Assembly (NCBI GenBank): GCA_002368155.1
Contig: AP018180.1
Coordinates: 7,744,561-7,808,560 of the forward strand
Length of the DNA: 64,000 nt
Origin: Nostoc carneum NIES-2107
GTDB taxonomy: Bacteria > Cyanobacteriota > Cyanobacteriia > Cyanobacteriales > Nostocaceae
Direction of reading: 5' to 3'
Every line of letters begins with the position of its first letter. Positions within the stretch are counted from its first letter, which is position 1. Made by a program: the position numbers and the translations under genes. The notes beneath the pieces were generated by a model that was given only the letters and a program-made list of their open reading frames with translations, was not told the DNA's origin and ran no database searches. Shown piece after piece: positions 24,872 to 57,364 of the stretch.

Positions 24872-26035
24872 TTAAGAAAGCTCAGGTGGTCTAAGGTTCG
24901 TAAAGTTAGTAGCGCCATAGTGGTTGTCAATCATTTTTGCTGATGTTCCAGTCCATCTACCGATCGCGGTGCTGTTAATATGTGCTTCTACACATAAACT
25001 GATAAAGGTATGCCGTGTCTGGTAGCTCTTACGATAAGGGACGTTACACTTAGTTAAGATAGACTTCCATGCACGATTAGCGAAATTGTGATGGTCGATA
25101 AATTTTCCTTTTGGACTTTTAAACACTAGAGATTCAGGATTAACTTCCTCAGGCCTAATCTCATCTAAAATTGCTTGCACTTCTGAATTAATCGGAAAAT
25201 CCCGTTTTCTTTGAGTTTTTAGTCCATCTTTGAGGACTAAGCCATCTTCGGAGACAACTACAGATTCCCGAAACTGAATCACACTATTAGTAATGTGCTT
25301 CCATTTCAACCCAACTGCTTCTGATGGTCTACACCCAGTAAAGAAGAGGAAACGCACATAGTGAGTGTAATGCCTATAGTAGCGATCGCTAGCGAAAGTA
25401 CGAATAATTAAATCTCTTTCTTCTTTACTGAAAGGATGAATATCCTGCTCTTCAATAGCACCCTTGGGTACTTTAATTTTCATAGCAGCAAATGGGTTAG
25501 TTTCAATTAATCCCTCTTCCATTGCCCAATTACAGCAAGCTTTGAGTTGAGTTAAGCAGCGTTTTGCAGCGTCTGGACTTAGATTCGATAAAAGATAATC
25601 TCTAATAGCAGATGCCTCATCAAGCGATCGTGTTGGCAACTTAGCAATATGATTTCGATGCTTAGTAAAGTCTTTAGCGAAAGTACTAGGGCTAACTTGA
25701 GGCTTTTTGAACTCGCTATATTTGTCCCACAACTCATCTAACTGTGGTTTTGGTTTCTGAATTGGTGTAACTGTTGTAACTGGTGTAACTGTACTTAGAG
25801 ATGACGCAGGTTTGTACTTCGCTAAAGTCTCGTCCAACCGTTCATATAAGATATCTTTCTCAATCTCCGCTGCTTTTAGTTCTGCCAGTTTCCGACTAGC
25901 AGGAGTATCTAGCCACCCTGTGGACAAGTAATGGCGCTTACCCGCATAGTGAAATCTCAACTGTAACCGATCATTAGAGTTAATGATTGATACAGATCCT
26001 TTATATCCTCTTCCCCTAGAAGTATTTTGATACAT
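24872..26035 (-). CDS. Tyrosine recombinase / integrase
   Basis: 387 residues: an N-terminal DNA-binding part with the AP2-like pattern (YKGSVSIINSNDRLQLRF), a core-binding SAM-like region (about 100-185) and a catalytic domain. R236 (TGCRPSEA), R341 (YQTRHTF) and Y373 (DNHYG) are the catalytic arginines and tyrosine. The box II histidine is replaced by Y338 and the later His/Trp is probably W361. The start codon lies in the first of two 80-bp tandem repeats. The tRNA-Phe 3' half 290 bp upstream is the likely attachment site. Confidence 0.92.
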   Translation of the reverse strand: MYQNTSRGRGYKGSVSIINSNDRLQLRFHYAGKRHYLSTGWLDTPASRKLAELKAAEIEKDILYERLDETLAKYKPASSLSTVTPVTTVTPIQKPKPQLDELWDKYSEFKKPQVSPSTFAKDFTKHRNHIAKLPTRSLDEASAIRDYLLSNLSPDAAKRCLTQLKACCNWAMEEGLIETNPFAAMKIKVPKGAIEEQDIHPFSKEERDLIIRTFASDRYYRHYTHYVRFLFFTGCRPSEAVGLKWKHITNSVIQFRESVVVSEDGLVLKDGLKTQRKRDFPINSEVQAILDEIRPEEVNPESLVFKSPKGKFIDHHNFANRAWKSILTKCNVPYRKSYQTRHTFISLCVEAHINSTAIGRWTGTSAKMIDNHYGATNFTNLRPPELS

Positions 26036-29215: not shown

Positions 29216-30289
29216 CTACCTCGTTGCAGTAGTTCCTAAAGGACATACCGAAGCAGCAATATCTACTCGTTTAGGAAGAATTTTTTGCTCTAGTAGCCAG
29301 TCAGCTGTTTTCTGAAGCTTGCTAATATCATCAGCATTGGGAAAGAGGTAAGACTCTGGGCCGCGATTCTTAGTTGCTTGCTTGGCTACAGCTTGCGAAA
29401 CTTTGAGTTCCTTCACCATAAAATCTGCGGCTGCATCAGAATGCTGATTCAACCATTCACCATCTTGGCTCAAAGCTGTTAGCGCAGATTTAATTGCTAC
29501 AGGATTATCCTTCGCTGCATCACCACGCACAACCATAATGTTGTAAGTAGGTGCAGGATGTATAGTCGTGATTCGTCGCGCTTTATGTTCTAATTCAGCA
29601 ATGGAAATATAAGGTTCCCAAACAGCCCAACCATCAACCGAACTTTGGTATAACGCTGGTGCAGCATCATTTGGCGATAGGTAAACTCGCTGGACTTTAT
29701 CTTTGGGGATATTTTCTTTTTCTAAAACTTTTAATAACAGGTATTCACCTGCACCGCCTTGGTTCACTGCTACTTTTTTACCAATTAAATCAGCAGGTTT
29801 ACGGATAGAAGAATCGCCGCGCACTAAAATGGCACTACCCAAGGAATCTGGTTTAGGACGCTGTACAGAACCTATACATAGTGGTTGTCCAGAAGCAATT
29901 CCTGAGATGGTAGGAATATCACCGCAACCACCTATGTCTGCACGATTACCATTAAGGGCAGCTAGTAGCGTTGCACAACGATCAAATGGCCCAGTCCATT
30001 CAACTTTAATATTTTGCGTTGTGAGCTGCTTTTCTAGGTCGCCGCGCTGACGCGAAATGGGAATAATCCCGCCTTTTTGGTATCCTAAGCGAACTACGTT
30101 GCTTTTTTGGGGATTTTGATTGCTACTAACAACCTGTGAGGCAGAATTGGAGTTAGCTGGCGGATTCACAGCCGTTTTTTGACTGCAACCAGTAACCATC
30201 AAACTCAGATATGCAACAGCAAGTAAAAAACCACGGTTAGAAGACGCTTGTAATGAGCGAAAGTTATGCTCTTGTAAATAATTCACCAC
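29216..30289 (-). CDS. Sulfonate-type ABC transporter substrate-binding lipoprotein (SsuA-like 1)
   Basis: 357 residues from GTG 30289, with AAGGA 8-11 bases upstream. The lipobox LMVTGC places the lipidated cysteine at C35. The mature part has the SsuA/nitrate-binding pattern: VRLGYQKGGIIPI, GRSDIG-like GNRADIGGCGDIP, IRKPADLIGKKVAVNQGG and a conserved VDGWAVWEPYI. One of four SsuA-like proteins here. No permease is adjacent. A 34-bp dyad operator at 30365 lies 76 bases upstream. Confidence 0.88.
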   Translation of the reverse strand: MVNYLQEHNFRSLQASSNRGFLLAVAYLSLMVTGCSQKTAVNPPANSNSASQVVSSNQNPQKSNVVRLGYQKGGIIPISRQRGDLEKQLTTQNIKVEWTGPFDRCATLLAALNGNRADIGGCGDIPTISGIASGQPLCIGSVQRPKPDSLGSAILVRGDSSIRKPADLIGKKVAVNQGGAGEYLLLKVLEKENIPKDKVQRVYLSPNDAAPALYQSSVDGWAVWEPYISIAELEHKARRITTIHPAPTYNIMVVRGDAAKDNPVAIKSALTALSQDGEWLNQHSDAAADFMVKELKVSQAVAKQATKNRGPESYLFPNADDISKLQKTADWLLEQKILPKRVDIAASVCPLGTTATR

Positions 30290-30364
30290 AATTTATTCCT
30301 TCATCTCAATTGTTGAGAGTTGAAGCAGCAGCCGTATTTGTTTAATTTGAGAGGCGAAACCATT

Positions 30365-30398
30365 AATCTACATAAAATCGATATATATATCGTAGATT
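30365..30398. promoter_or_regulatory. 34-bp dyad AATCTAC-N20-GTAGATT, copy 1
   Basis: Perfect 7-bp inverted half-sites separated by exactly 20 bases, with an inner palindrome CGATATATATATCG. The same half-sites and spacing occur at 56205-56238, upstream of another SsuA-like gene, and both begin CATTAATCTAC. The most likely reading is an operator for a dimeric or tetrameric regulator such as a LysR-type protein. Confidence 0.75.
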
Positions 30399-32673: not shown

Positions 32674-32771
32674 GCTTGCACCTATGGCAGAGACTGATAA
32701 AATACTAAAAGCCGATAGACTTACAGTTAATTGTTGGCACTAGTACTAAAAAAATATATTTGATGCAGTAA

Positions 32772-34079
<1,308 letters not shown>

Positions 34080-34199: not shown

Positions 34200-35255
34200 A
34201 TGAAATACCAGCATTTAATTTCACCACAAACACATTATTATCAACTCTCGCAGCCGTTTAAGTTAGAGGGAGGTGAAGTTTTAACTGGGGTGCAAATTGC
34301 TTATCGAACTTGGGGAAAGTTAAATTCACAAGGCGATAATGGAGTGCTAATTTGTCATGCTTTGACTGGTTCGGCTGATGCGGATGTTTGGTGGGAAGAT
34401 TTATTTGATTCAGGAAAAGCATTTGATGGCGATCGCGATTTTATCGTATGCAGTAACATTTTAGGAAGTTGTTACGGCACTACAGGCGCGACTAGCATTA
34501 ATCCCCAAACCGGAATTCCTTACGGCGCATCATTTCCCGCCATTACCATTCGGGATATGGTGCGCTTACAAGCCGAACTGATTCAATATCTGGGAATTAA
34601 ATCTTTGCAACTCGTAATTGGTGGTTCCCTGGGGGGAATGCAAGTACTAGAGTGGGCTTTATTATATCCAGAAATAGTGAGAGCGATCGCACCCATTGCC
34701 ACATCTGGGAGACATTCGGCTTGGTGTATTGGACTGAGTGAAGCCCAAAGACAAGCTATCTATAACGATCCTAACTGGAAAGGGGGTAACTATACAGATG
34801 AGGAACCACCCAACCAAGGATTAGCCGTCGCACGGATGATGGCGATGAGTATGTATCGTTATTGGGAAAGCTTTACAGAACGCTTTGGACGACAGTATGA
34901 TGACTCTGCGAATCAATATGCGATCGCTAGCTACTTACAACATCATGGACAAAAGCTAGTAGAAAGATTTGATGCCAATACTTACATTACTCTTACCAAA
35001 GCGATGGATAGTCATGATATCGCCCAAGGTAAAGACTATGAATCTGTTTTGCAAACTATTAAACAACCTACTTTAGTTGTCGCTATTGATTCTGACATTC
35101 TTTATCCCCCAATAGAACAACAAGAATTAGCAGATTTCATTCCGAATGCTCAACTAGTTTGGCTGAAATCAACCTACGGACACGATGCATTTTTAGTTAA
35201 TACACAAACACTCAATAAATTTATAATTAACTTTCGACAATCTATATATAAATAG
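34200..35255 (+). CDS. metX: Homoserine O-acetyltransferase
   Basis: 351 residues, alpha/beta hydrolase. The nucleophile is S143 in VIGGSLGGMQVLEW, with the acid in AIDSDILYPP and the histidine in YGHDAFLV. It acylates homoserine for the direct sulfhydrylation route. The gene follows metY. Acetyl rather than succinyl donor is assumed from family. Confidence 0.92.
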   Translation: MKYQHLISPQTHYYQLSQPFKLEGGEVLTGVQIAYRTWGKLNSQGDNGVLICHALTGSADADVWWEDLFDSGKAFDGDRDFIVCSNILGSCYGTTGATSINPQTGIPYGASFPAITIRDMVRLQAELIQYLGIKSLQLVIGGSLGGMQVLEWALLYPEIVRAIAPIATSGRHSAWCIGLSEAQRQAIYNDPNWKGGNYTDEEPPNQGLAVARMMAMSMYRYWESFTERFGRQYDDSANQYAIASYLQHHGQKLVERFDANTYITLTKAMDSHDIAQGKDYESVLQTIKQPTLVVAIDSDILYPPIEQQELADFIPNAQLVWLKSTYGHDAFLVNTQTLNKFIINFRQSIYK

Positions 35256-39211: not shown

Positions 39212-40312
39212 TTACCATTTCTGCTCGGGAACCCAGTTATAATTTTTGTCCTTGACATCTATCTTCTTAGGAATAATCTTTAGCTCATAGAAGGTATCTG
39301 CCATGCGCTGTAAGCCCGAAAGCACTTCATCAGTTACAGGTAACACGCTGCGATCGCCTCCTCGCTTTTCCACAATTTCCATTGTTGGTTCGTCAATTTT
39401 GTAGACTTTAGAAAGCAATTTGGCAGAATCTTTGTAATTATTTTTTGACCAAGAACCAGCTTTTTCTAATTCTTGTAAAATTATCTTGACAATATCAGGA
39501 TGGTCGCGAACAAAATCGGGAGCCGCATAATAGAATGAAGGGCTTTCTAAGGCAGCTTTATCGCCAAATACTGCAGAATTATCTGCTAACAAACGAGTAC
39601 GCAGCTTTTGTTCAGCTTGTGCGGTATAAGGGTCCCAAATCAACCATGCATCAATATCACCACGCTCAAATGCTGGTAAAGCTTCTGCTGGAGTTAAATA
39701 CAAAGGTTGGATATCAGTAAATTTTAATCCCACCTTTTCTAAGGCACGAACTATAATATAGTGCTGTCCCGAACCTTTAGCAAAAGCAACTTTTTTACCT
39801 TTCAAATCCGAGAGCGTTTTAATAGGTGAATCTTCTTTCACTAAGATAGCTGAACCTCTGGTACTACCTATTCCAGCAGCTACTCTCACAAATGGTTTAT
39901 CGCTAGCCTGTGCAAATACGCTTCCTGTTCCACCACCACCACCAAAAACAATACTACCGACACCCATTCCTTCTAAAAGTGGTGCAGTAGAAGAAAATTC
40001 GCTCCATGTCACAGATATACCTTGAGGTTGTAAGCGCTTCTCTAAACTTCCCTGTGCTTTTAGTATATTTAAAAGTGCCATCCCTTTTTGATGACCCATT
40101 TTGAGTACTGTTAACTGGCTTTTTTGTGGTTCTTGTTTTGCAGCATTGGCAGAGTTGGTAGAGTTATGTGGGGTGCAAGCTGCGAGATTTAAACTCAATC
40201 CCAAGCCAATAATAAATAACAGAATAAAATTATTTATTTTAGGTTTATATATTCTGCGTAAGATTCTCTGGTTAATCCAAGAAAAGAATTGATTTGTGAG
40301 TTTACTGAACAT
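39212..40312 (-). CDS. Sulfonate-type substrate-binding lipoprotein (SsuA-like 2)
   Basis: 366 residues. A long basic N-terminus precedes the membrane segment, with lipobox LNLAAC and C46. The mature part has LKMGHQKGMALLNILKAQG, SIVFGGGGGTG, DLKGKKVAFAKGSGQHY and GDIDAWLIWDPYTA, typical of the SsuA/TauA group. It lies 100 bases upstream of metQ 2 on the same strand and 230 bases after the ferritin-like gene, so it may be part of one long - strand sulfur operon starting at 42432. Confidence 0.88.
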   Translation of the reverse strand: MFSKLTNQFFSWINQRILRRIYKPKINNFILLFIIGLGLSLNLAACTPHNSTNSANAAKQEPQKSQLTVLKMGHQKGMALLNILKAQGSLEKRLQPQGISVTWSEFSSTAPLLEGMGVGSIVFGGGGGTGSVFAQASDKPFVRVAAGIGSTRGSAILVKEDSPIKTLSDLKGKKVAFAKGSGQHYIIVRALEKVGLKFTDIQPLYLTPAEALPAFERGDIDAWLIWDPYTAQAEQKLRTRLLADNSAVFGDKAALESPSFYYAAPDFVRDHPDIVKIILQELEKAGSWSKNNYKDSAKLLSKVYKIDEPTMEIVEKRGGDRSVLPVTDEVLSGLQRMADTFYELKIIPKKIDVKDKNYNWVPEQKW

Positions 40313-41382: not shown

Positions 41383-42432
41383 TTAAGCTACTAGTTCTCG
41401 CGATCGCACTCGTGGCATCACTTCTTCAGCAAAACGTTTCATTTCTGGGGGAAAAGGTTGGAATTGCAGCATGAAAGTATCTACACCAACTTCCACAAAG
41501 TCTGTAATTCTCGCGGCTACGGTGTCATAACTACCAACTAACCCCGCCGCAGTCCCGCCATTACTTCCTACCCCTGGATATTTCGCCATATTCTTGAACA
41601 TGACTACATCTGGTTCTACACCTTTCATCAGTTCAGTTCTATCGTCTTGTTGGGCGAGTTCTCGCAGGTATTCATATTCGGCTTGGGCTTCTGCATCAGT
41701 AGGCCGTGCAATGACAAAAGCTGACATAGCAAACCGCAGAGGATGAGGTTTTTTCCGTTCCCGCTTTCTTACATCAGCAATAGTTTCCCTAATGACATCT
41801 AAGGGGCGACCATTAAGAAAGAATACATCTGCTGTTTCCATTGCCAGATTCTTCGCTGCATCCGATTCTCCGCCTAGATATACGAGGGGATGAGGTTGCG
41901 CTATAGGACGGGGACGTAAGCATAAATCGGTAATTTGAAAGTATTCGCTTTGATAATTAACTTTTTCGCCACTCCACAGGGCTTTTACCACTTCCATCCA
42001 CTGCTGGGAATAGCGATAGCGTTCATCATGAGGTAGGAAAGGTATGCCGGATTTTTGCAATTCCGGCATAAACCAGGCGCTGATTAAATTAATAGCAAAC
42101 CTACCACCACTAATGGCATCAATATTTAATGCCATCTTCGCCAAAACTACTGGATGAAATAGCAAAGGTTTAATGGCGGCGATAATTTCTATAGATTTAG
42201 TTGCTTCTGCTAGGGCGGCTGCGGTTGTCCAAGTCTCTAGCTGGTCTAATTCTTGATTTCTCGGATTGATAATGTGTTCGGCGATGAGAGTGGTGGTAAA
42301 CCCATAGGCTTCTGCTAGTTGGATGAGTTGCTTGGCTCTGTTGTAGCTAGCATCACGGGGTTCATACGGGTGGTTCATCGCGCCACAATTGCCGTAAACG
42401 GGAATCCAAATCCCGTATCGTGGCTGAGGCAT
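41383..42432 (-). CDS. FMNH2-dependent alkanesulfonate/dimethylsulfone-type monooxygenase (LLM class)
   Basis: 349 residues of the luciferase-like monooxygenase family (MPQPRYGIWIPVYGNCG, SGGRFAINLISAW, YLGGESDAAKNLA). The length and motifs fit the SsuD/SfnG group, which cleaves C-S bonds of sulfonates or sulfones with reduced flavin and oxygen, giving sulfite or sulfinate. No flavin reductase is adjacent. First gene of the - strand run that continues to the ferritin-like gene. Confidence 0.88.
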   Translation of the reverse strand: MPQPRYGIWIPVYGNCGAMNHPYEPRDASYNRAKQLIQLAEAYGFTTTLIAEHIINPRNQELDQLETWTTAAALAEATKSIEIIAAIKPLLFHPVVLAKMALNIDAISGGRFAINLISAWFMPELQKSGIPFLPHDERYRYSQQWMEVVKALWSGEKVNYQSEYFQITDLCLRPRPIAQPHPLVYLGGESDAAKNLAMETADVFFLNGRPLDVIRETIADVRKRERKKPHPLRFAMSAFVIARPTDAEAQAEYEYLRELAQQDDRTELMKGVEPDVVMFKNMAKYPGVGSNGGTAAGLVGSYDTVAARITDFVEVGVDTFMLQFQPFPPEMKRFAEEVMPRVRSRELVA

Positions 42433-43061
42433 ATTTCTACACCCTCTTATACTAGAGGCTAATTCTGCTGAAATTTAAGCGGGACAGTAATTTGAACGTT
42501 TGATTTGATTAACTTAAACAAACTCCGGTTTTTTGACCAATTTACCGTAGTATTGGTATATAATAATTTCACAAATAGCTGACAAAAGCAATGGGTGAAG
42601 TAAAGAAAATTTGTAATTGTCAGTAGGTGGGGGTTGGGGAATGGGTAATGGGTGAAGGGGAAAGAATCAATGGCTTTTGACTCTTGACTAAAAACCCTTG
42701 CCTTTTGTTGTTCAATATGTGAAACTTTCTTTAATAAAATACTTAAAATCTACCAAGTTACTGTACTTTAATTGCATTGCGTAAATTTGCATAAAATCTC
42801 ATGGCAAAAATGCCAAAGATTAATGTTCCTTAGCTAAGGATGGTAGGTCAAAAGCTTATTTTTATAACTCAGGGTGACAATGCCGATTGTGATTGCTTGA
42901 GACCGCGTAGTTTATATAGTTATCTCTATTCAGAGATATATCTGAGAAAGCAAAAAATGCAACATTGATGGCTAATGAGTAGAGATTTCAAGATAGCCGT
43001 AAGCAAAATTTCTACATTTATATTCACAGACAATCACTCATAGATTAGGAGGTTTTATCGC
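42433..43061. other. Divergent promoter region of the sulfur genes
   Basis: 629 bases between the monooxygenase gene (-) and ssuB-like gene (+). It contains the element at 42544-42588, an unusual AT-rich centre and, at 43048, AGGAGG just before the ssuB start. No gene or known riboswitch seen. Confidence 0.6.
42544..42588. promoter_or_regulatory. Shared element ACCGTAGTATT ... GCTGACAAAAG, copy 1
   Basis: Two exact 11-base blocks, 23 bases apart. The same two blocks occur at 56091-56131 with a 19-base gap, upstream of SsuA-like 4. The core TACCGTA also occurs reversed at 47082-47088, upstream of SsuA-like 3. May hold a promoter and regulator site common to the sulfur genes. Confidence 0.65.
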
Positions 43062-43856
43062 ATGGCATTGGCAACACGCGGAATGCACTTGATGTTGAAA
43101 GAACTAAGCAAGTCTTTTGGGACAAAAACAGTTCTACAAAATATTGATTTAGAAATTAAGCCAGGCGAATTTGTGGCTATTGTTGGTCGTAGTGGATGCG
43201 GCAAAAGTACAATGCTGCGGCTAATTGCCGGCTTAGATGCACCAAGTGCAGGTGGTGTGTTTTTAAATGACCAACAATCCCACCAGCAGATTAATCCCAC
43301 CATCCGTATGATGTTTCAAGATCCGCGACTTTTGCCTTGGCAACGAGTCATAGCAAATGTGGAACTAGGCTTACTGGGTTCTAACTCTAAAGCTTATGTG
43401 AGGCAGACAGCTTTACAAGTGCTGCGGGCGGTGGGATTAGAAGACCGCGCTAATGAGTGGCCATCCGTCCTCTCTGGGGGACAGCGCCAACGGGTGGCGT
43501 TAGCGAGAGCCTTAACTAGCAAACCTTCGCTATTGCTGCTAGATGAGCCTCTAGGGGCGTTGGATGCCTTAACGCGCATTGAAATGCAGCAATTATTAGA
43601 AAATCTATGGCAGGAGCAGCAATTTACAGCCCTGTTAATTACTCATGATGTAGAAGAAGCTGTAGTGTTAGCAGACCGAGTAGTTTTGATTGAAGATGGT
43701 CAAATTGGTCTAGATGTGAAGATTGATTTTCCACGTCCTCGTTCTCGGGGGGATGCAGAGTTTGCAAAGACGGTTGAGAAGATTTTACAACGGGTAATGA
43801 CCAGACAAGAAAGCGATCGCGCGTCTGATTATGCCCTAGATTCAGAAGCTGCTTAG
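43062..43856 (+). CDS. ssuB: Sulfonate/nitrate-type ABC transporter ATPase
   Basis: 264 residues, full-length. Walker [10 protein letters not shown], signature LSGGQRQR, Walker [13 protein letters not shown] and H-loop [16 protein letters not shown] is 8 bases before the ATG. This is the only ATPase of this type in the window, and no matching permease (SsuC) is seen, so transport needs one from elsewhere. The symbol is by family; ligand not established. Confidence 0.87.
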
Positions 43857-43894
43857 AACAATTTGTAATTCCTAATTCGTAATTGAGAGGGGCG

Positions 43895-45082
43895 ATGGTG
43901 CAACTATTAGCTAAAGAAGAATCTCAAGATTGGATTTCTATAGCATCTTCCCTGGCTGCGGAATTGAGAGCTACCGCAGTGGAAAGAGATCAAAAAGCCG
44001 GACTTCCAGATATAGAAATTCAACGGCTGCGGGAAAGTGGCTTATTACCTTTAGTCGTACCTCAAGAATATGGTGGTACTGGCGCAACTTGGGCAGAAGC
44101 TTTTAAAGTGATTCAACAACTTTCAACAGCAGATGGTTCTATTGGACAGTTGTATGGTAATCACCTGAATTTGACAGCTTTAGCTCATGTTTCTGGTACA
44201 GTAGAGCAAAAAGAAAGATATTACCGCGAAACAGCCGAAAAAAATCTCTTTTGGGCAAATGCCATTAATACACGCGATACCAGGCTAAAAATTACTCCTG
44301 AAGGCGAAAATTTTCGGGTTGATGGAGTAAAAAGCTTTGGTACTGGTGTGGCAATTGCAGATTTGCGTGTCTTCTCTGCCCTCCAAGATGGTGTAGAAGT
44401 CCCCTGGTTGTTTGTCATTCCTAAAGACAGACCTGGGGTGGTTTCTAACCAAGATTGGGATAACATCGGACAACGTCGCACAGATAGCGACACATTCACC
44501 TTTCATGATGTATTGGTAAAACAAGATGAAATCCTGGGATATCCTCATCCTACTGATAGTGCTTTTGGTACATTTTTGGGAATCATCGCTCAATTAACCA
44601 AAACCTACATATATTTAGGGATTGCCGAAGGCGCATTAGCTGCGGCGAAAGAATACACCAAAACTCAAACTAGAGCTTGGATTACCTCTGGGGTAGACAG
44701 CGCCAGCAAAGACCCGTATATTTTGCGGCATTATGGCGAATTTTGGGCGGAACTGCAAGCCGCCATTGCGTTGAGCGATCGCACAGCCGCCCAAGTGCAA
44801 CAAGCTTGGGATAAAGGTGCAGATTTGACTTTTGAAGAACGGGGGGAAGTGGCAATTGCTGTTTTCTCCGCTAAAGCTTTGGTTACCCGTGTAGGATTAA
44901 ATATTACCAACGGTATCTTTGAAGTCACCGGAACTAGATCCACAGCTACTAAATACGGCTTTGACCGCTACTGGCGTGACCTGCGTACCTTTACCCTCCA
45001 CGATCCAGTTGATTACAAACTCAATCACATTGGTAATTGGATACTCAATCAAGAGTTACCAATTATTACTCAGTATTCTTGA
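43895..45082 (+). CDS. SfnB/DszC-type acyl-CoA-dehydrogenase-like flavin monooxygenase
   Basis: 395 residues from ATG 43895 with GAGAGG upstream; TTG 43883 would add four residues. The acyl-CoA dehydrogenase fold is evident (PQEYGGTGATWAEAFKVIQQL, TNGIFEVTGTRSTATKYGFD), but it lacks an obvious catalytic glutamate for dehydrogenation and resembles the SfnB/DszC group, which uses reduced flavin to oxidise sulfur compounds. It lies 38 bases after ssuB. Substrate not known. Confidence 0.85.
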   Translation: MVQLLAKEESQDWISIASSLAAELRATAVERDQKAGLPDIEIQRLRESGLLPLVVPQEYGGTGATWAEAFKVIQQLSTADGSIGQLYGNHLNLTALAHVSGTVEQKERYYRETAEKNLFWANAINTRDTRLKITPEGENFRVDGVKSFGTGVAIADLRVFSALQDGVEVPWLFVIPKDRPGVVSNQDWDNIGQRRTDSDTFTFHDVLVKQDEILGYPHPTDSAFGTFLGIIAQLTKTYIYLGIAEGALAAAKEYTKTQTRAWITSGVDSASKDPYILRHYGEFWAELQAAIALSDRTAAQVQQAWDKGADLTFEERGEVAIAVFSAKALVTRVGLNITNGIFEVTGTRSTATKYGFDRYWRDLRTFTLHDPVDYKLNHIGNWILNQELPIITQYS

Positions 45083-46819: not shown

Positions 46820-47081
46820 CATACTTTTGTGGCTAGCCCTAGCTCCAAAATAGTAATTGTGGGTTAATCTAGAAACCCTTATGGTATAAGAGGCGTTTCT
46901 AACTCATATTATAAGTAATTTATATTTTTTAATTGCTTTAAGTGCGAATTTATTATAAAAAATTAAGTCGATAATTATAAATTACCTATTATATTTAAAA
47001 AAAAATATTAGCTAATAAAAATCTTTAATTTACCAGTTGCATTTTTTTGGAAACTGTGGAAAAATTTCCTGTATAGCAAAA

Positions 47082-47088
47082 TACGGTA
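47082..47088 (-). promoter_or_regulatory. TACCGTA core, reversed, upstream of SsuA-like 3
   Basis: The 10-base ATTTACCGTA, read on -, matches the sequence at the ssuB block (42540-42549). It lies 141 bases before the binding-protein start. A single short match; weak on its own. Confidence 0.4.
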
Positions 47089-47228
47089 AATCAATCAAGT
47101 TTTAGTAGTTTGCTAATTACAAATTTCCATCTGCTATCAATATTGCAGGGATAGGCACAGATTTTATAGCTATTTAAGCTACTAAAACTGAGGGCGAATC
47201 AACAAACTTTTCAAGAAGCTTAGAGTTC

Positions 47229-48293
47229 GTGTCAAAAGTTATGAAAATACCATTTCTTCCACAACGTCGCACTGTCTTAAAGCGGATGGTGCAATATACA
47301 TTAGCAGGAGTTTTTGCACTATCAGCACCTTTAACAGGTAGTCTCCTTCAAAGTAGTGAAGCACAAACAAAACCCGCAGGTTTTAAGTCAAAAGTCATCA
47401 ATTTGGCTTATCAAACTTCAGGGGATATAGTTAAAGCCAGAAAATCTGTAGAGCCACGTTTTAAAGCATTGGGTGTAACAGTAAATTGGGTAGGGCCATT
47501 TCCTGCAGGCCCACAACTGATAGAAGCAATGAATGCAGGTAAGGTTGATATCGGTACTGTAGGAGAAACACCTCCAATATTTGCCCAAGCAGCAGGTATT
47601 ACAGAGGTTGTTTATATTGCTGGTCGTAGGCCTAGTAAAGGGCTAAATCAAGGTATTGTAGTGAGAGCCAATTCTCCAATTAAAAAGCTTGCAGATATCA
47701 AAGGTAAGAAAGTTGCCTTTCAAAGAGGGTCGAATGCTCATTATTTATTAGCAAAAGCTTTGAAAGAAGTAGGTTTAAAAATTAGCGATGTGCAAGTTGT
47801 TGGCTTAACTCCATCAGAAGCCCGCGATGCTTTTATTCAAAATAAAGTGGAAGTGTGGGTAGCTGGCGATCCTTTTTTAGCTCTTGTCGAAAAAAGCATT
47901 CCTATTCGTAATTTGAGAAATGCAGGTGGTATTAACACCTTGGGAGGATTTTATATTGCCAGACGGCAATTTGTTTCTGAAAATCAAGAATTAGTACGAG
48001 TATTTTTAGATGAAGCAGACAAAGTTGGAGAATGGGCTGATAAAAATCCATCTGAAGCAGCCAAAGCACTTGCAGGTGAGGTAAAACTTGACCCATCAAT
48101 TTTAGAAGTAGTGTCACGCCGAACAGTTCGGCGGTTAAGATCATTGACACCTTCTATTATTGCCGAACAACAACAGGTTGCTGATTTCTATTTCCAAGAA
48201 AAAATCATTCCCCGCAAAGTCAACATTCGGGATGCTATACCTCCCTCTGACACATTACGAGCTATCATTCCTCAGAGGCTAGCTAGAAACTAA
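47229..48293 (+). CDS. Sulfonate-type substrate-binding protein (SsuA-like 3)
   Basis: 354 residues from GTG 47229, or 350 from ATG 47241. The signal peptide (RRTVLKRMVQYTLAGVFAL) has a twin arginine and lacks a lipobox, so it is probably soluble, unlike the other three. Motifs: VINLAYQTSGDIVKARK, MNAGKVDIGTVGETPPIFAQ, ADIKGKKVAFQRGSNAHY. It stands alone between two long spacers. The ligand is not known. Confidence 0.88.
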   Translation: MSKVMKIPFLPQRRTVLKRMVQYTLAGVFALSAPLTGSLLQSSEAQTKPAGFKSKVINLAYQTSGDIVKARKSVEPRFKALGVTVNWVGPFPAGPQLIEAMNAGKVDIGTVGETPPIFAQAAGITEVVYIAGRRPSKGLNQGIVVRANSPIKKLADIKGKKVAFQRGSNAHYLLAKALKEVGLKISDVQVVGLTPSEARDAFIQNKVEVWVAGDPFLALVEKSIPIRNLRNAGGINTLGGFYIARRQFVSENQELVRVFLDEADKVGEWADKNPSEAAKALAGEVKLDPSILEVVSRRTVRRLRSLTPSIIAEQQQVADFYFQEKIIPRKVNIRDAIPPSDTLRAIIPQRLARN

Positions 48294-49050: not shown

Positions 49051-49058
49051 ATAGTTAA

Positions 49059-49088
49059 ACTACGGTAAACTAATTAGTTTATCGTAGT
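49059..49088. terminator. Strong hairpin terminator
   Basis: A 13-bp stem with one G-T pair (ACTACGGTAAACT/AGTTTATCGTAGT) and loop AATT, directly after the secreted-protein stop. Symmetric, so it could also serve the facing gene. Confidence 0.75.
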
Positions 49089-49138
49089 ACAGCTATATAA
49101 AAATATCATATCAGAAATTTTGTGCGATCGCATAGCAT

Positions 49139-52158: not shown

Positions 52159-52767
52159 TTAGTAATTATTACCCATCATTCCTGGGGGTATAGCTGCACC
52201 TTCTAAATCAGCACCTAGCAAGTTTGCACCTTGAATATTCGCAGTTAGAAGATTGGTTTTTTGTAAATCAGCCTTTTGTAAATTTGCGCCTTGTAAGTTT
52301 ACTCCTTGGAGATTTGCACCCTCTAAATCCGCGTCAAATAGATTTGCACCTTGCAGATTCGCGCCTGTGATATTTGCTTTACTTAAATCTACTCCTTGCA
52401 AATTAGCTGTTTGTAAATTAGTTCCTTGCAAATTCGCCTTTTCTAATTCTGCATCTTGGAGATTTGCACCTTCCAAATTAGCTGCTTGTAAATTTGCTCT
52501 TTCTAATTGTGCGCCAATCAAATTGCATCCCGCACATTCATTAGTTGTTAATAACCGTCTGACATTAGCGGCTACAGAATCTACAGGCCAAATTGTGGGA
52601 GATGTCACAGGCGCTGGTACTGATTGCGTAGGAATAGTAGGTATAGCTGGTGTTTCTGTTTGTGCTAGAGCGTTAGGTTGATCGAATAATGAAAAGACAG
52701 CCACAAATGCTATAAAGACAACTGTTAAAATCCAGGAAGTCATATTTTGAGAATTTGGTTTCTTCAT
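52159..52767 (-). CDS. Secreted pentapeptide-repeat protein
   Basis: 202 residues. A signal peptide or anchor (WILTVVFIAFVAVFSLF) is followed by a proline-rich linker and about 20 A(D/N)LxX pentapeptide repeats (LERANLQAANLEGANLQ...). A short CAGCNL motif precedes the repeats. These fold as a right-handed quadrilateral helix. Function unknown. The repeats produce a long shadow frame on +, which is not a gene. Confidence 0.92.
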   Translation of the reverse strand: MKKPNSQNMTSWILTVVFIAFVAVFSLFDQPNALAQTETPAIPTIPTQSVPAPVTSPTIWPVDSVAANVRRLLTTNECAGCNLIGAQLERANLQAANLEGANLQDAELEKANLQGTNLQTANLQGVDLSKANITGANLQGANLFDADLEGANLQGVNLQGANLQKADLQKTNLLTANIQGANLLGADLEGAAIPPGMMGNNY

Positions 52768-53595: not shown

Positions 53596-53966
53596 AAATC
53601 TTTACCTGCAATAGTTTAATGATGTGCAACTATTTCTGCTCTGCTGAGAAAAGAAGTCAAAATAGTTCAGCAGATTGTGAAATCAAATCTTGAATTTATT
53701 GACGGCGATGTCTACGACGGTCAATCACATCTAGATGTTTTGTGAGTACAGCCAGCTAGCTCGGCTATCTATGAATTTAATCTTATGGTTTACTAGCTAA
53801 AGCAAGCAAATACTATTTTTTTTCTAAACGATAAATAGAATTTATTAACTTTTTAATTGTTCATATACTAGGATGCGTTATTAACGCATCCTACTAGTTA
53901 TTTGGTAAAATATCCTGTAAGCCCATAGGTTTAAAGTACTTTACTCAATTATCTAGAGGAATAGAC
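53596..53966. other. Spacer with a palindromic repeat
   Basis: 371 bases. GGATGCGTTATTAACGCATCC at 53871-53891 is another member of the GTAGGGTG/GGATGCG repeat family. A GAGGAA ribosome-binding site precedes the aminotransferase. No gene seen. Confidence 0.6.
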
Positions 53967-55160
53967 GTGACTCAGGTAGGAAAGCAAAGAATTTCAGATA
54001 AGGCAAGCCAGTTCACAGAGTCAGTCATTCGCGAAATGACGAGAGTTGCATTACAGTATGGTGCGGTGAATTTGGCGCAAGGATTTCCTGATTTTCCTTG
54101 TCCACCTGAGTTAAAACGAGCAGCAATTGAGGCGATTGAGGAAGACATTAACCAATATGCGATTACTTGGGGGGATAAAGCTTTTCGTCATGCGATCGCA
54201 GATAAAGTTAAATGGTATTTAGATTTAAATATCGATCCAGAACGACAAATCACTGTTACTTGCGGTTCCACAGAAGCAATGGCTGCAGTGATGTTAGCAA
54301 CCTTGAACCCTGGTGATGAAGTCATTGTCTTTGAACCCTATTATGAAAACTATGGCCCCGATGCGATTTTAGCTAGTGCAACGCCTCGTTATGTATCTCT
54401 ACATCCCCCTGAGTGGACATTTGATGAACAAGAACTACGTCAGGCATTTAATGAACGCACAAAAGCCATTATTATTAATACGCCGCATAACCCTACAGGA
54501 AAAGTATTTACTCGTGAAGAACTAACTTTAATTGCAGAACTTTGTCATCAGTGGGATGTGTTGGTATTCACAGATGAAATTTACGAACATATTCTTTATG
54601 ATGGTACACAGCATATTGCAATGGCAACTCTGCCGGGAATGGCAGAAAGAACAGTTACTATTAATGGACTTTCTAAAACCTATAGTGTTACTGGTTGGCG
54701 AGTTGGCTATATTTTAGCCAATCCAGAATTAACAGGTGCAATTCGTAAAGTCCATGATTTTCTGACAGTTGGCGCACCTGCACCTTTGCAGAGGGCTGGT
54801 GTGGCAGCAATGCAACTTCCTGTTAGCTACTATCAAGAATTAGCCAAATTATATCAACAAAAACGCAATCAGATTCTACAAATTTTAGATACAGTGGAAA
54901 TTCCTTACTTTGTGCCGCAAGGAGCCTACTATGTATTTGCAGATATTGCCAAATTTGGCTATCAAAATGGTGTAGAATTTGCCACATATCTAATTAAAGA
55001 AATTGGTGTGGCGGTAGTTCCTGGTTCTAGCTTTTTTGCTCAATCACAGACGGGTAATAATTTTATTCGATTTTGTTTTAGTAAGCAGCCAGAAACATTA
55101 GCCAAAGCAGGAGAGCGATTACTAAAATTACAATCAACTCCATCCATAACTGCAAAATAA
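53967..55160 (+). CDS. Class I aminotransferase (methionine/aromatic type)
   Basis: 397 residues from GTG 53967, with GAGGAA 8 bases upstream. Full-length fold type I: NTPHNPTGKVFT, FTDEIYEHILYDG and the PLP lysine in NGLSKTYSVTGWRVGY. The sequence is in the group of methionine and kynurenine transaminases. In the sulfur region, 2-oxo-4-methylthiobutanoate or methionine is a reasonable substrate, but this is inference. Confidence 0.88.
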   Translation: MTQVGKQRISDKASQFTESVIREMTRVALQYGAVNLAQGFPDFPCPPELKRAAIEAIEEDINQYAITWGDKAFRHAIADKVKWYLDLNIDPERQITVTCGSTEAMAAVMLATLNPGDEVIVFEPYYENYGPDAILASATPRYVSLHPPEWTFDEQELRQAFNERTKAIIINTPHNPTGKVFTREELTLIAELCHQWDVLVFTDEIYEHILYDGTQHIAMATLPGMAERTVTINGLSKTYSVTGWRVGYILANPELTGAIRKVHDFLTVGAPAPLQRAGVAAMQLPVSYYQELAKLYQQKRNQILQILDTVEIPYFVPQGAYYVFADIAKFGYQNGVEFATYLIKEIGVAVVPGSSFFAQSQTGNNFIRFCFSKQPETLAKAGERLLKLQSTPSITAK

Positions 55161-55330: not shown

Positions 55331-56032
55331 TTACTGGATAAATACTCTCTTAGTAGCATGGGCATAGATAAAATAATTCTCAGTCATATTAACATCAGTG
55401 ATAAAACCAACTTTTTCCAAATGCTTTTGTAGCTCATTTGGCTGATAAAATATTTTCACTATATCAAATTCCTGCCCATCATTTAACTTCCGCCTTTTGT
55501 ATATACTGCCGTCATCATTAAGGATATGGTTATTAGCTGTAGATGTCGGTTCAAAACGAGAGTCAATAATAAATAATTTCCCACCTACACGCACAGATTT
55601 AGAGACTTTTGCTAAAAAAGACTCCAGTAATTCTGGTGGCACATGAGATAACCAAAAAGAGAAAAATACTAAATCATATTCAGCATTAGGTTCCCATGTA
55701 AATAAATCTATTTGTTGATATTCTACATTCTGTGCATTTAACTTACTACGATTAATCGCAATTACTTCTTCTGAAGTATCAATTGCGGTAATTTTATTGC
55801 TAATTTTTAACAGTTCTTGCGTCCAAATTCCCGTTCCACAGGCTAGTTCTAAACATTTCTCGAATTGTCCAATTTGATGTAAAGCCTGTTTGACAATATC
55901 AATCTCTTGAAACCAACACTGGTTGATTTCCTCACCACGATTATAACGCCCAAGGCGATAGAACCATTCATCATATTCGTTGGCTCTAGCGCTATAGTAG
56001 GCAATTTGTTGTTCTAAAATTTGCTTGGTCAT
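55331..56032 (-). CDS. Class I SAM-dependent methyltransferase
   Basis: 233 residues. SAM motif LELACGTGIWTQ, acidic ITAIDTS, and LVFFSFWLSHVPPE. Divergent from SsuA-like 4 with a 222-bp shared region containing the two shared elements. Substrate unknown. Confidence 0.86.
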   Translation of the reverse strand: MTKQILEQQIAYYSARANEYDEWFYRLGRYNRGEEINQCWFQEIDIVKQALHQIGQFEKCLELACGTGIWTQELLKISNKITAIDTSEEVIAINRSKLNAQNVEYQQIDLFTWEPNAEYDLVFFSFWLSHVPPELLESFLAKVSKSVRVGGKLFIIDSRFEPTSTANNHILNDDGSIYKRRKLNDGQEFDIVKIFYQPNELQKHLEKVGFITDVNMTENYFIYAHATKRVFIQ

Positions 56033-56090
56033 TGCCAGCTTTACATCTCCTGATAAATTTTACTGCAAATTACTGTATTTTGGTAAAACT

Positions 56091-56131
56091 ACCGTAGTAT
56101 TATTCTGAAATAATTATATTGCTGACAAAAG
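56091..56131. promoter_or_regulatory. Shared element ACCGTAGTATT ... GCTGACAAAAG, copy 2
   Basis: The two 11-base blocks match those at 42544-42588; gap 19 bases instead of 23. It is 124 bases upstream of SsuA-like 4 and 59 bases upstream of the methyltransferase on -. Confidence 0.65.
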
Positions 56132-56204
56132 TAAGCAATATTTCTCCAGTTTCTCGGCTATGCCTGAGAGATAAATTTTTGTTGGGTGATATTTTTATCA
56201 CATT

Positions 56205-56238
56205 AATCTACGGTTATTAAATCCGTTTACTGTAGATT
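56205..56238. promoter_or_regulatory. 34-bp dyad AATCTAC-N20-GTAGATT, copy 2
   Basis: Half-sites 56205-56211 and 56232-56238, with an inner CGG ... CCG pair. Same half-sites and spacing as at 30365-30398. It ends 16 bases before the GTG of SsuA-like 4, so a bound protein could block the ribosome-binding region or promoter, or the real start may be ATG 56282. Confidence 0.75.
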
Positions 56239-56254
56239 TGCTGTTATGGCATAG

Positions 56255-57364
56255 GTGTTTACCATTAGAAGCAAAGTATTTATGTTGTCTGAGCGCTTTC
56301 CATCTCGAATATTAAACATTTTTCTCCGTTTTTTCCAGAACTTTCAGCACAGAAGAATTCGGATTTTTTCTTTACTGTTTGCAATTGGGCTTGGTTTAGT
56401 TTTATTTGTGTCTGCTTGTTCTTCCAGCACAACGCAGCAAGCCACAACAACACCCACAGAACAGGCAACATCAACACCTAATCAGAGTCCAGCAGTTAGC
56501 AGTAATACCGTTAGAATCGGATTTCAGAAAGCGGGAACTATTTTAAGCGCATTGAAAACCAGAGGCGATTTAGAAAAAGCTTTGGCGGCTTCTGGCGCTT
56601 CTGTTACCTGGAGTGAATTTCCATCAGGCCCACCAATGTTAGAAGCTATCAACTCCGGTAGTATAGACTTCGGCTATACAGGAGAATCACCACCAATATT
56701 TGCCCAAGCCGCAGGTACACCTTTAGTTTATGTAGCTTACGATCCTTGGAGTACAAAGGCTGAAGCTATCCTTGTCCACAAAGATTCCCCAATTAAAACA
56801 GTGGCGGATCTCAAAGGTAAAAAAGTGGCTTTCGCCAAAGGTTCCAACACGAACTACCTAGTAGTAAAAGCCCTAGAAAAAGCAGGACTCCAATATACTG
56901 ACATCCAAGCAGTTACCCTCCAACCTGCTGATGGACGTGCGGCATTTGAAGGTAAAAACGTTGATGCTTGGGCAATTTGGGACCCTTACTTAGCTTTAGC
57001 AGAAAAAGCTACAGGCGCACGCACTTTAACCGACGCAACCGGATTAGCGCCGAATCGTGGTTATTATTTGGCTGCTAAATCTTTTGTAGATGCTCATGCT
57101 GATACTTTGAAAATAGTTTTAGATGAAGTGAAAAAGACTAGCGACTGGGCCAAGAATAATCCTAGTGAAGTGGCTAAATTTCTCTCGCCTACATTGGGTA
57201 TTGATGCAGATGTTTTAGAGGTAGCAGAAAAGCGGCGTGATTATGGTGTGCTGACAATTACCGATGAAGTAATTGCAAAACAGCAAGAGATTGCTGATGC
57301 ATTCTACAAAATCAAACTTATACCGAAGCAAATTAATGTTAAAGACATAGTTTGGCGTAATTAG
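56255..57364 (+). CDS. Sulfonate-type substrate-binding lipoprotein (SsuA-like 4)
   Basis: 369 residues from GTG 56255, or 360 from ATG 56282. A basic N-terminus precedes the membrane segment and the lipobox FVSAC (C55). Pattern: VRIGFQKAGTILSALK, NSGSIDFGYTGESPPIFAQ, DLKGKKVAFAKGSNTNY. Closely like SsuA-like 2 and 3. The dyad operator is just upstream. A 150-bp heptamer-rich spacer separates it from the flavoprotein, with which it may be cotranscribed. Confidence 0.88.
   Translation: MFTIRSKVFMLSERFPSRILNIFLRFFQNFQHRRIRIFSLLFAIGLGLVLFVSACSSSTTQQATTTPTEQATSTPNQSPAVSSNTVRIGFQKAGTILSALKTRGDLEKALAASGASVTWSEFPSGPPMLEAINSGSIDFGYTGESPPIFAQAAGTPLVYVAYDPWSTKAEAILVHKDSPIKTVADLKGKKVAFAKGSNTNYLVVKALEKAGLQYTDIQAVTLQPADGRAAFEGKNVDAWAIWDPYLALAEKATGARTLTDATGLAPNRGYYLAAKSFVDAHADTLKIVLDEVKKTSDWAKNNPSEVAKFLSPTLGIDADVLEVAEKRRDYGVLTITDEVIAKQQEIADAFYKIKLIPKQINVKDIVWRN

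Follow-up and report, generated by a model that had tools for sequence, protein, structure and literature searches.

The inverted repeat AATCTAC-N20-GTAGATT, which an initial annotation had noticed upstream of two sulfonate-binding-protein genes of Nostoc carneum NIES-2107, is real and belongs to something larger than was first described, namely a class-wide sulfur-regulon operator. Sequence comparison makes it almost certain that the dyad acts as the operator of a widespread cyanobacterial sulfur regulon: it recurs at sulfur genes and upstream of the sulfate-permease gene cysA across the cyanobacteria, and thus looks like a sulfur-regulon operator. Sulfur sensing in cyanobacteria is poorly understood in comparison with that of nitrogen (NtcA) or iron (Fur), and no earlier description of this motif was found among the literature titles and abstract openings searched. 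The analysis yields the 34-bp operator itself, a list of targets that covers sulfate, sulfonate, sulfone and methionine genes, two candidate regulators, and a testable idea of tail competition for CysK.

Within the window, the whole 64,000-nt stretch of DNA that was analysed, the dyad lies at 30365-30398 and 56205-56238, in both cases exactly as annotated and directly preceded by CATT, and the exact pattern scan of the window gave no third copy. The annotated placement also holds, in that the SsuA genes 29216-30289 (-) and 56255-57364 (+) lie on opposite strands, each downstream of its dyad. A search of the whole genome, 9,359,223 bases in four contigs, returned the window pair as the only 2 exact copies and none of the reversed pattern, against an expectation of 0.08 exact dyads per genome (i.i.d. 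estimate, 42% GC). Two exact dyads in 26 kb, both beside SsuA genes, are therefore not the product of chance, which the annotation had judged very unlikely.

The two 7-mers with a blank N20 between them are a poor description of the element, because the pattern with up to two mismatches gives 76 genome matches as compared to 74 for its reversed control; for the same reason a profile was used in place of the loose pattern. The motif signal needs the conserved inner positions and not the outer 7-mers alone. As described by matrix P2, built from 49 places in the Nostoc carneum genome, the element is a 34-bp palindrome, approximately WAAMTACKGTAAATCGATCGATTTACMGTAKTTW, with 26.9 bits in total, and it can be divided into a pair of 15-bp inverted repeats (AAAMTAC-N-GTAAATC) with a centre-to-centre distance of 19 bp. 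The strongest bases are those at a distance of 11-13 bp from the centre of the dyad, and the inner bases common to many intergenic copies follow the form AATCTAC.GTAAATC.AT.GATTTAC.GTAGATT. The AATCTAC and GTAGATT half-sites of the annotation are present exactly, but they are only one variant of the outer arm, accounting for 6 of the 94 arms tallied, with AAAATAC in 17 and AAACTAC in 16.

The first matrix (PWM in what follows) is symmetric and was drawn from 24 of the 45 places at which the exact pattern occurs in 38 of 217 genomes of the family; the reversed control occurs at 19 places in 18 genomes. Both window copies were included, part of the places were picked for their intergenic context and six by resemblance alone, and matches inside genes, near-duplicates and places of the L032-L034 and G180 type were dropped. 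These last (L032, L033, L034 and G180) carry an exact AATCTAC-N20-GTAGATT with a different inner palindrome, the L032 copy adjoining a zinc-alcohol-dehydrogenase gene, and are probably unrelated hairpins. Profile R1 is sequence-only, being made of 22 first-matrix places and seven other window copies in both orientations. Matrix P2 leaves out two in-ORF places and the promoters of the CRP and Rrf2 genes discussed below; its top score in 1 Mb of random sequence is 12.5, and all 49 places score above 18, but these are its training set. The -10/-35 steps around 32 oriented sites showed no clear promoter geometry, so activation and repression are not readable from position.

For the scan of the window with the first matrix the bar was the highest of 20 Markov shuffles, 4.8, and six further places exceeded it with 10.1-20.6 bits (32699, 42520, 42736, 47078, 49057 and 53909). 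The operator copies, given without strand, and the genes beside them are as follows.

30365..30398: operator copy 1, 75 bp upstream of the SsuA-family gene 29216-30289 (-)
32699..32732: weaker operator copy (PWM 15.9), 46 bp upstream of the O-acetylhomoserine/O-acetylserine sulfhydrylase gene 32778-34079 (+)
42520..42553: weaker operator copy (PWM 12.5), 87 bp upstream of the luciferase-type monooxygenase gene 41383-42432 (-)
42736..42769: weaker operator copy (PWM 10.1), 293 bp upstream of the SsuB-like ATPase gene 43062-43856 (+)
47078..47111: operator copy (PWM 20.6), 118 bp upstream of the SsuA-family gene 47229-48293 (+)
49057..49090: operator copy (PWM 11.8; P2 29.4, strong), between two convergent ORFs, upstream of no called gene
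53909..53942: operator copy (PWM 13.5), 25 bp upstream of the aminotransferase gene 53967-55160 (+)
56067..56100: weak operator copy (PWM 3.8), 34 bp upstream of the methyltransferase gene 55331-56032 (-)
56205..56238: operator copy 2, 17 bp upstream of the SsuA-family gene 56255-57364 (+)
29216..30289 (-): SsuA-family sulfonate-binding protein (TIGR01728 182 bits, cut-off 163.5)
32778..34079 (+): O-acetylhomoserine/O-acetylserine sulfhydrylase (TIGR01326 707.7 bits, cut-off 495.1)
34200-35255, after the sulfhydrylase gene: MetX (NF001209 401.8, cut-off 331)
41383..42432 (-): luciferase-like FMN monooxygenase (PF00296; nearest SfnG/SsuD, below their cut-offs)
43062-43856 (+): SsuB-like ATPase (below equivalog cut-off)
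43883-45082 (+): DszC/SfnB-like flavoprotein (below equivalog cut-off)
47229..48293 (+): SsuA-family sulfonate-binding protein (TIGR01728 195 bits, cut-off 163.5)
56255..57364 (+): SsuA-family sulfonate-binding protein (TIGR01728 250.2 bits, cut-off 163.5)

The copies at 42520 and 42736 occupy one divergent spacer, and that at 49057-49090 may serve an unannotated small gene or RNA. The 56067 copy falls below the highest shuffle (3.8 as against 4.8) and scores 17.8 bits with R1, but is in the R1 training set, and a 4.6-bit match at 52386 lies inside an ORF. The window holds a further SsuA-family gene at 39212 (TIGR01728 209.5 bits, above the cut-off of 163.5). The coding repeats of gene 52159-52767 (-), pentapeptide-repeat-like by reading, mimic AATCTAC-N20-GTAGATT with 1-3 mismatches, and matches also lie inside homologues of this gene in other genomes (L024, L027, L035 and L036). 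Hairpin-like steps are present near both SsuA genes, at 30290-30320 and 56150-56180 (CTCAATTGTTGAGAG; CTCGGCTATGCCTGAG), and match no Rfam family at gathering level.

Across the whole Nostoc carneum genome, R1 at E<=10 gives 113 strand matches at 60 places, of which 53 have their centre outside ORFs of at least 120 residues, such ORFs covering 76% of the stretches read; five of the seven places centred inside one are weak (E about 0.9-5). Thirty places reach E<=0.02, and 22 of them are outside the window and absent from the training set. Among these untrained places, 15 have sulfur-type genes around them (7.81-7.94 Mb and 2.16-2.18 Mb), and a further two coincide with the promoters of a CRP/FNR-family gene (hereafter CRP) and an Rrf2-family gene. 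The region 7.774-7.943 Mb, an island of about 170 kb that starts in the window, holds 28 of the 60 places. Reading of protein starts indicates that the island encodes several SsuA-type binding proteins, luciferase-type monooxygenases, TauD-like dioxygenases, DszC/SfnB-like flavoproteins, NlpA/MetQ, and rhodanese-like and sulfatase-like proteins; gene names in the window are backed by Pfam and NCBIfam, and those elsewhere are mostly read from protein starts in this way, except for one rhodanese. The sites mark the 170-kb island as one regulated unit, and suggest organic sulfur as a major source for some Nostoc-type strains. A phage-integrase family gene with an arm DNA-binding domain, 24872-26035 (-), lies about 4 kb from the first SsuA gene in the window and may bear on the arrival of the organosulfur island.

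Beyond the island, sites are found at a gene for a sulfate-binding protein with cysT- and cysW-like genes behind it (3474127, E 1.7), at the sulfate-permease ATPase gene cysA (C2:162079, E 0.39), at cysE facing the Rrf2 gene and cysK (4590616), and at the CRP gene (3154530). Pfam and NCBI profiles confirm the families of the sulfate-binding protein, CysA, CysE, CysK, Rrf2 and CRP. The copies at cysA and the sulfate-binding-protein gene are weak in this genome, and so carry weight only through their conservation elsewhere, and a few places, such as 3059339, have no obvious sulfur gene nearby. As predicted from these places, the regulon is one of about 50 sites that includes the sulfate-uptake genes, cysE, the cysK operon and two regulator genes. 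The dedicated sulfur regulation suggested by the initial annotation is thus borne out as sulfur control, since the element recurs beside sulfur genes here and class-wide, but not as a signal of two SsuA genes.

Comparison with other genomes extends this picture. Copy 1 is identical in 27 of 34 columns across five genomes, as compared to 155 of 258 in its flanks, and copy 2 in 30 of 34 columns across three genomes, as compared to 176 of 244. Profile matches at E<=0.02 under strict filters make 83 of 194 class genomes motif-positive, a lower bound, since four genomes outside the list (G240, G246, G255 and G274) have sites at cysA. At cysA itself, the 30 best loci drawn from 59 class genomes were examined, and in 27 of them a place with a score over 12 stands no more than 500 bp upstream (directly upstream, for three loci that were read separately); Nostoc carneum's own locus is among the 30 and is included in the matrix. 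In the random control, 1 of 459 coding windows (344 bp, from other loci) scores above 12. Induction of the Sbp-cysTWA genes upon sulfur starvation has been reported in Synechocystis (PMC2491639). In 11 site-bearing genomes without a CRP match (E<=1e-30), seven sites are, by reading, at a sulfate-binding protein, cysT, cysA or TauE-like gene, two are at a gamma-glutamylcyclotransferase-like gene and one is beside a luciferase-type monooxygenase; in the eleventh genome, G229, the neighbouring genes yielded no name by reading. The gamma-glutamylcyclotransferase-like gene (by reading) that the operator precedes in L154 (G276) and L157 (G375) would fit glutathione recycling under sulfur shortage.

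Several explanations compete with that of a sulfur operator read by an Rrf2 protein, and one of them, that the dyads reflect chance, a mobile repeat or an RNA hairpin, has a negligible probability. The palindromes are transcribable as hairpins, and the loose AATCTAC-N20-GTAGATT pattern is not enriched, but intergenic placement, association with sulfur genes and class-wide conservation speak against this explanation and refute chance; moreover, the copies are too different for recent copying, and the window has no Rfam family at gathering level. As to the binder, the initial annotation had put forward a LysR-type protein of the CysB/CmpR kind. A LysR gene is indeed divergent to the Rrf2 gene, with a site between the two, in L130, L132 and L136, but a close homologue (at least 59% identity) is found in only 6 of 27 genomes and is missing from 18 of the 24 with sites (among them G056, G055, G260, G246, G240 and G255). 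LysR as a universal binder is rejected on this absence, and a LysR-type binder of any kind is very improbable.

Among the remaining candidates an Rrf2-family, CymR-like protein is ranked first and CRP second, and sequence evidence makes the Rrf2 protein, the best of several candidates, the probable reader of the operator. An Rrf2 homologue (E<=1e-15) is present in 166 of 194 genomes, comprising all 83 motif-positive genomes and 83 of the 111 others (p = 3e-8, ignoring relatedness). The Rrf2-negative genomes G291, G366 and G373 have no site in 9.5-10 kb around their sulfate-permease genes, where the best score is 4.3 and far off, and three Rrf2-positive genomes of G291's family have sites there with scores of 14.6-18.7. 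Two groups of Rrf2 proteins, with very similar DNA-binding stretches, can be distinguished: the widespread group is encoded directly upstream of cysK in 12 of 13 loci, and the second, a paralogue beside cysE, cysK and CRP, has sites near its gene in 17 of 17 loci (L122-L138). Counting against Rrf2, the widespread gene has its own site in only 1 of 13 loci (L139-L151; score 16.4), and G324 and G331 possess Rrf2 (weaker matches, E 2e-29 and 2e-25) and cysA, yet 8.5 and 13.6 kb of their sequence, respectively, contain nothing that scores above 12; G315, another weaker Rrf2 match, has a site of 18.5 at its sulfate operon. The competing view, that a CysR-type CRP/FNR protein binds the operator of the same regulon directly as an activator and that Rrf2 is simply another target, is rather unlikely. 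In its favour, of the 73 named CRP loci for which upstream sequence exists, 69 have a site above 12 immediately before the CRP gene, and a site above 18 lies within 3.5 kb of it in 26 of 30 class-wide loci. Among the matches listed, a CRP match that extends to the last residue is found in 48 of the 83 motif-positive genomes, as against 12 of the 111 motif-negative ones, or, put the other way, 48 of the 60 genomes with full-length CRP are motif-positive as compared to 35 of 134 others (p = 2e-12, ignoring relatedness). The only published genetics found, on CysR of Synechococcus elongatus, also concern a regulator of sulfate-transporter genes (PMC12016511). Against this, a CRP match at E<=1e-30, found in 108 of 194 genomes and 61 of 83 motif-positive ones, is absent from the other 22 motif-positive genomes, and strong sites are kept in G055, where CRP is found only as a C-terminal fragment (L178, G055:C1:5287252-5287392), and in G056, where the only match is 77 residues at 36% and NtcA-like; the sites of these two genomes are at sulfate-binding-protein, TauE-like and methionine-type genes, by reading of protein starts. 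CRP as sole binder is disfavoured by such genomes without an intact protein. A single CRP dimer normally reads closer to the dyad centre than 11-13 bp, so the strongest bases of the element lie beyond its usual reach. A composite switch with two inputs, whereby Rrf2 and CRP both bind the same 34 bp, competing or together, where both exist, is less probable again and can be called unlikely. It is favoured by linkage, with the Rrf2 gene at 50 and cysE at 49 of 80 named CRP loci (some loci stop at contig ends), by the CysK-type tails common to both proteins and by the sites upstream of both genes, but the full palindrome is kept in genomes without CRP, and thus nothing in it demands a second protein.

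Domain assignments define both candidates more closely. The Rrf2 protein scores 117.4 bits with PF02082 (cut-off 30) and 110.6 with TIGR00738 (cut-off 73.3), and its nearest NCBI family below superfamily level is CymR; because the paralogue beside cysE and CRP, which was the protein scored, reaches only 92.1 of the 195 bits set as the equivalog cut-off of NF047409, it is named CymR-like and not filed as CymR. The CRP protein has a Crp-type helix-turn-helix (PF13545 54.7 bits, cut-off 27; PF00325 45.8, cut-off 21) and an N-terminus that scores 22.1 bits with PF00027, as against a cut-off of 27.5, with several solved CRP/FNR chains matching across residues 26-188. Its best solved relatives by sequence are NtcA chains, the NCBI equivalog cut-offs for PtrA and NtcA are missed and these identities rejected, and its nearest named loci are those of Calothrix membranacea FACHB-236 (99%) and Nostoc linckia FACHB-104 (98%), in keeping with a heterocystous host of the Nostoc/Calothrix type.

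A further feature of these proteins is their C-terminal isoleucine. Rrf2 ends in MYYI (29) or MYHI (1) in 30 of 30 loci, and the ends of the solved Rrf2 proteins 4cic (MYYI) and 3lwf (MFYI) align with the cyanobacterial tail. CRP ends in W(H/Y/S)Y(E/Q/D)I in all 30 class loci examined and in WxYxI in 76 of 76 readable among 80 named loci, with W192, Y194 and I196 invariant in a 17-row alignment. CysE ends in DGAGI or NGAGI in 8 of 8 readable genes, and CysA in YSI in 30 of 30 loci (FPLYYSI and variants; L084:3041-4057 (-), L190-L219), whereas eight of nine other CysA-type genes lack a terminal isoleucine and one ends in TYAI. As background, isoleucine ends 18 of 344 ORFs in stretches of the Nostoc carneum genome and 119 of 866 over all loci, a set enriched in tail genes. 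The last residues of the Rrf2 and CRP models have low pLDDT, and the tails are therefore probably free. A C-terminal isoleucine that enters the CysK active site is reported as typical of partners of CysK, among which CysE, CdiA-CT and CymR are named (PMC4961446, PMC12895370). The YSI end of CysA resembles such docking tails. It can be proposed, tentatively, that CysK is the central sulfur sensor of cyanobacteria, for whose single active site the tails of at least four proteins, Rrf2 (MYYI), CRP (WHYEI/WYYEI), CysE (DGAGI/NGAGI) and CysA (YYSI and variants), contend. If this is true, O-acetylserine would exert simultaneous control over transcription, serine acetylation and sulfate import; CysK docking that controls a CRP/FNR regulator or an ABC transporter would, to our knowledge, be new in both cases.

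Taken as a whole, a model in which a sulfur-limitation operator is read by a CymR-like Rrf2 repressor coupled to CysK is reasonably likely. The binder would be one of two proteins, the widespread copy whose gene directly precedes cysK or the paralogue beside cysE, cysK and CRP. With ample sulfur, the MYYI tail of Rrf2 would sit in the CysK active site, and the CysK-regulator complex would occupy the operator and keep the scavenging genes off. When sulfide and cysteine run short, O-acetylserine would accumulate in CysK and displace the tail, whereupon the uptake genes and the sulfonate, sulfone and methionine genes would be switched on. The CysR-type CRP/FNR protein, itself in the regulon and with its own CysK-type tail, is probably a second, lineage-specific regulator. 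The CysK step of this model is drawn from the tails, and repression is proposed by analogy.

Several known systems invite comparison. CysR of Synechococcus elongatus belongs to the CRP/FNR family. In strain PCC 7942 it has been described as a transcription factor of the sulfate-transporter genes, and that text makes no mention of a motif, a binding site or EMSA (PMC12016511). Like CysR, a cyanobacterial regulator of sulfate transporters, the Nostoc homologue is of the CRP/FNR class and is flanked by sites, the likeness being one of class; unlike CysR, it is reported here with a conserved WxYxI tail. The operator of NtcA is GTA-N8-TAC. Its GTA and TAC steps recur in the present element, and NtcA chains are the closest solved relatives of the CRP protein, but the spacing here is GTA-N12-TAC inside TAC-N20-GTA, and the targets are sulfur genes. 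The motif TAAWATGATT predicted upstream of the plastid sulfate-transport genes cysT and cysA is a single short box of unrelated sequence, and the covered part of its description gives no cyanobacterial motif (PMC3773388). A fourth system is CymR-CysK of Bacillus and Staphylococcus. In B. subtilis this complex is reported to repress cysK, the ssu (sulfonate) genes and genes of methionine conversion, and to dissociate as O-acetylserine rises (PMC3828012). Both systems share an Rrf2 protein with a MYYI or MFYI tail, a gene beside cysK (in 12 of 13 loci of the widespread group) and a regulon that contains sulfonate and cysteine genes (PMC3828012). They differ in phylum, in the NF047409 score below its cut-off and in the 34-bp operator, which is defined here from cyanobacterial sequence alone, and the cyanobacterial regulon includes an ABC sulfate permease, a CRP/FNR regulator and a 170-kb organosulfur island.
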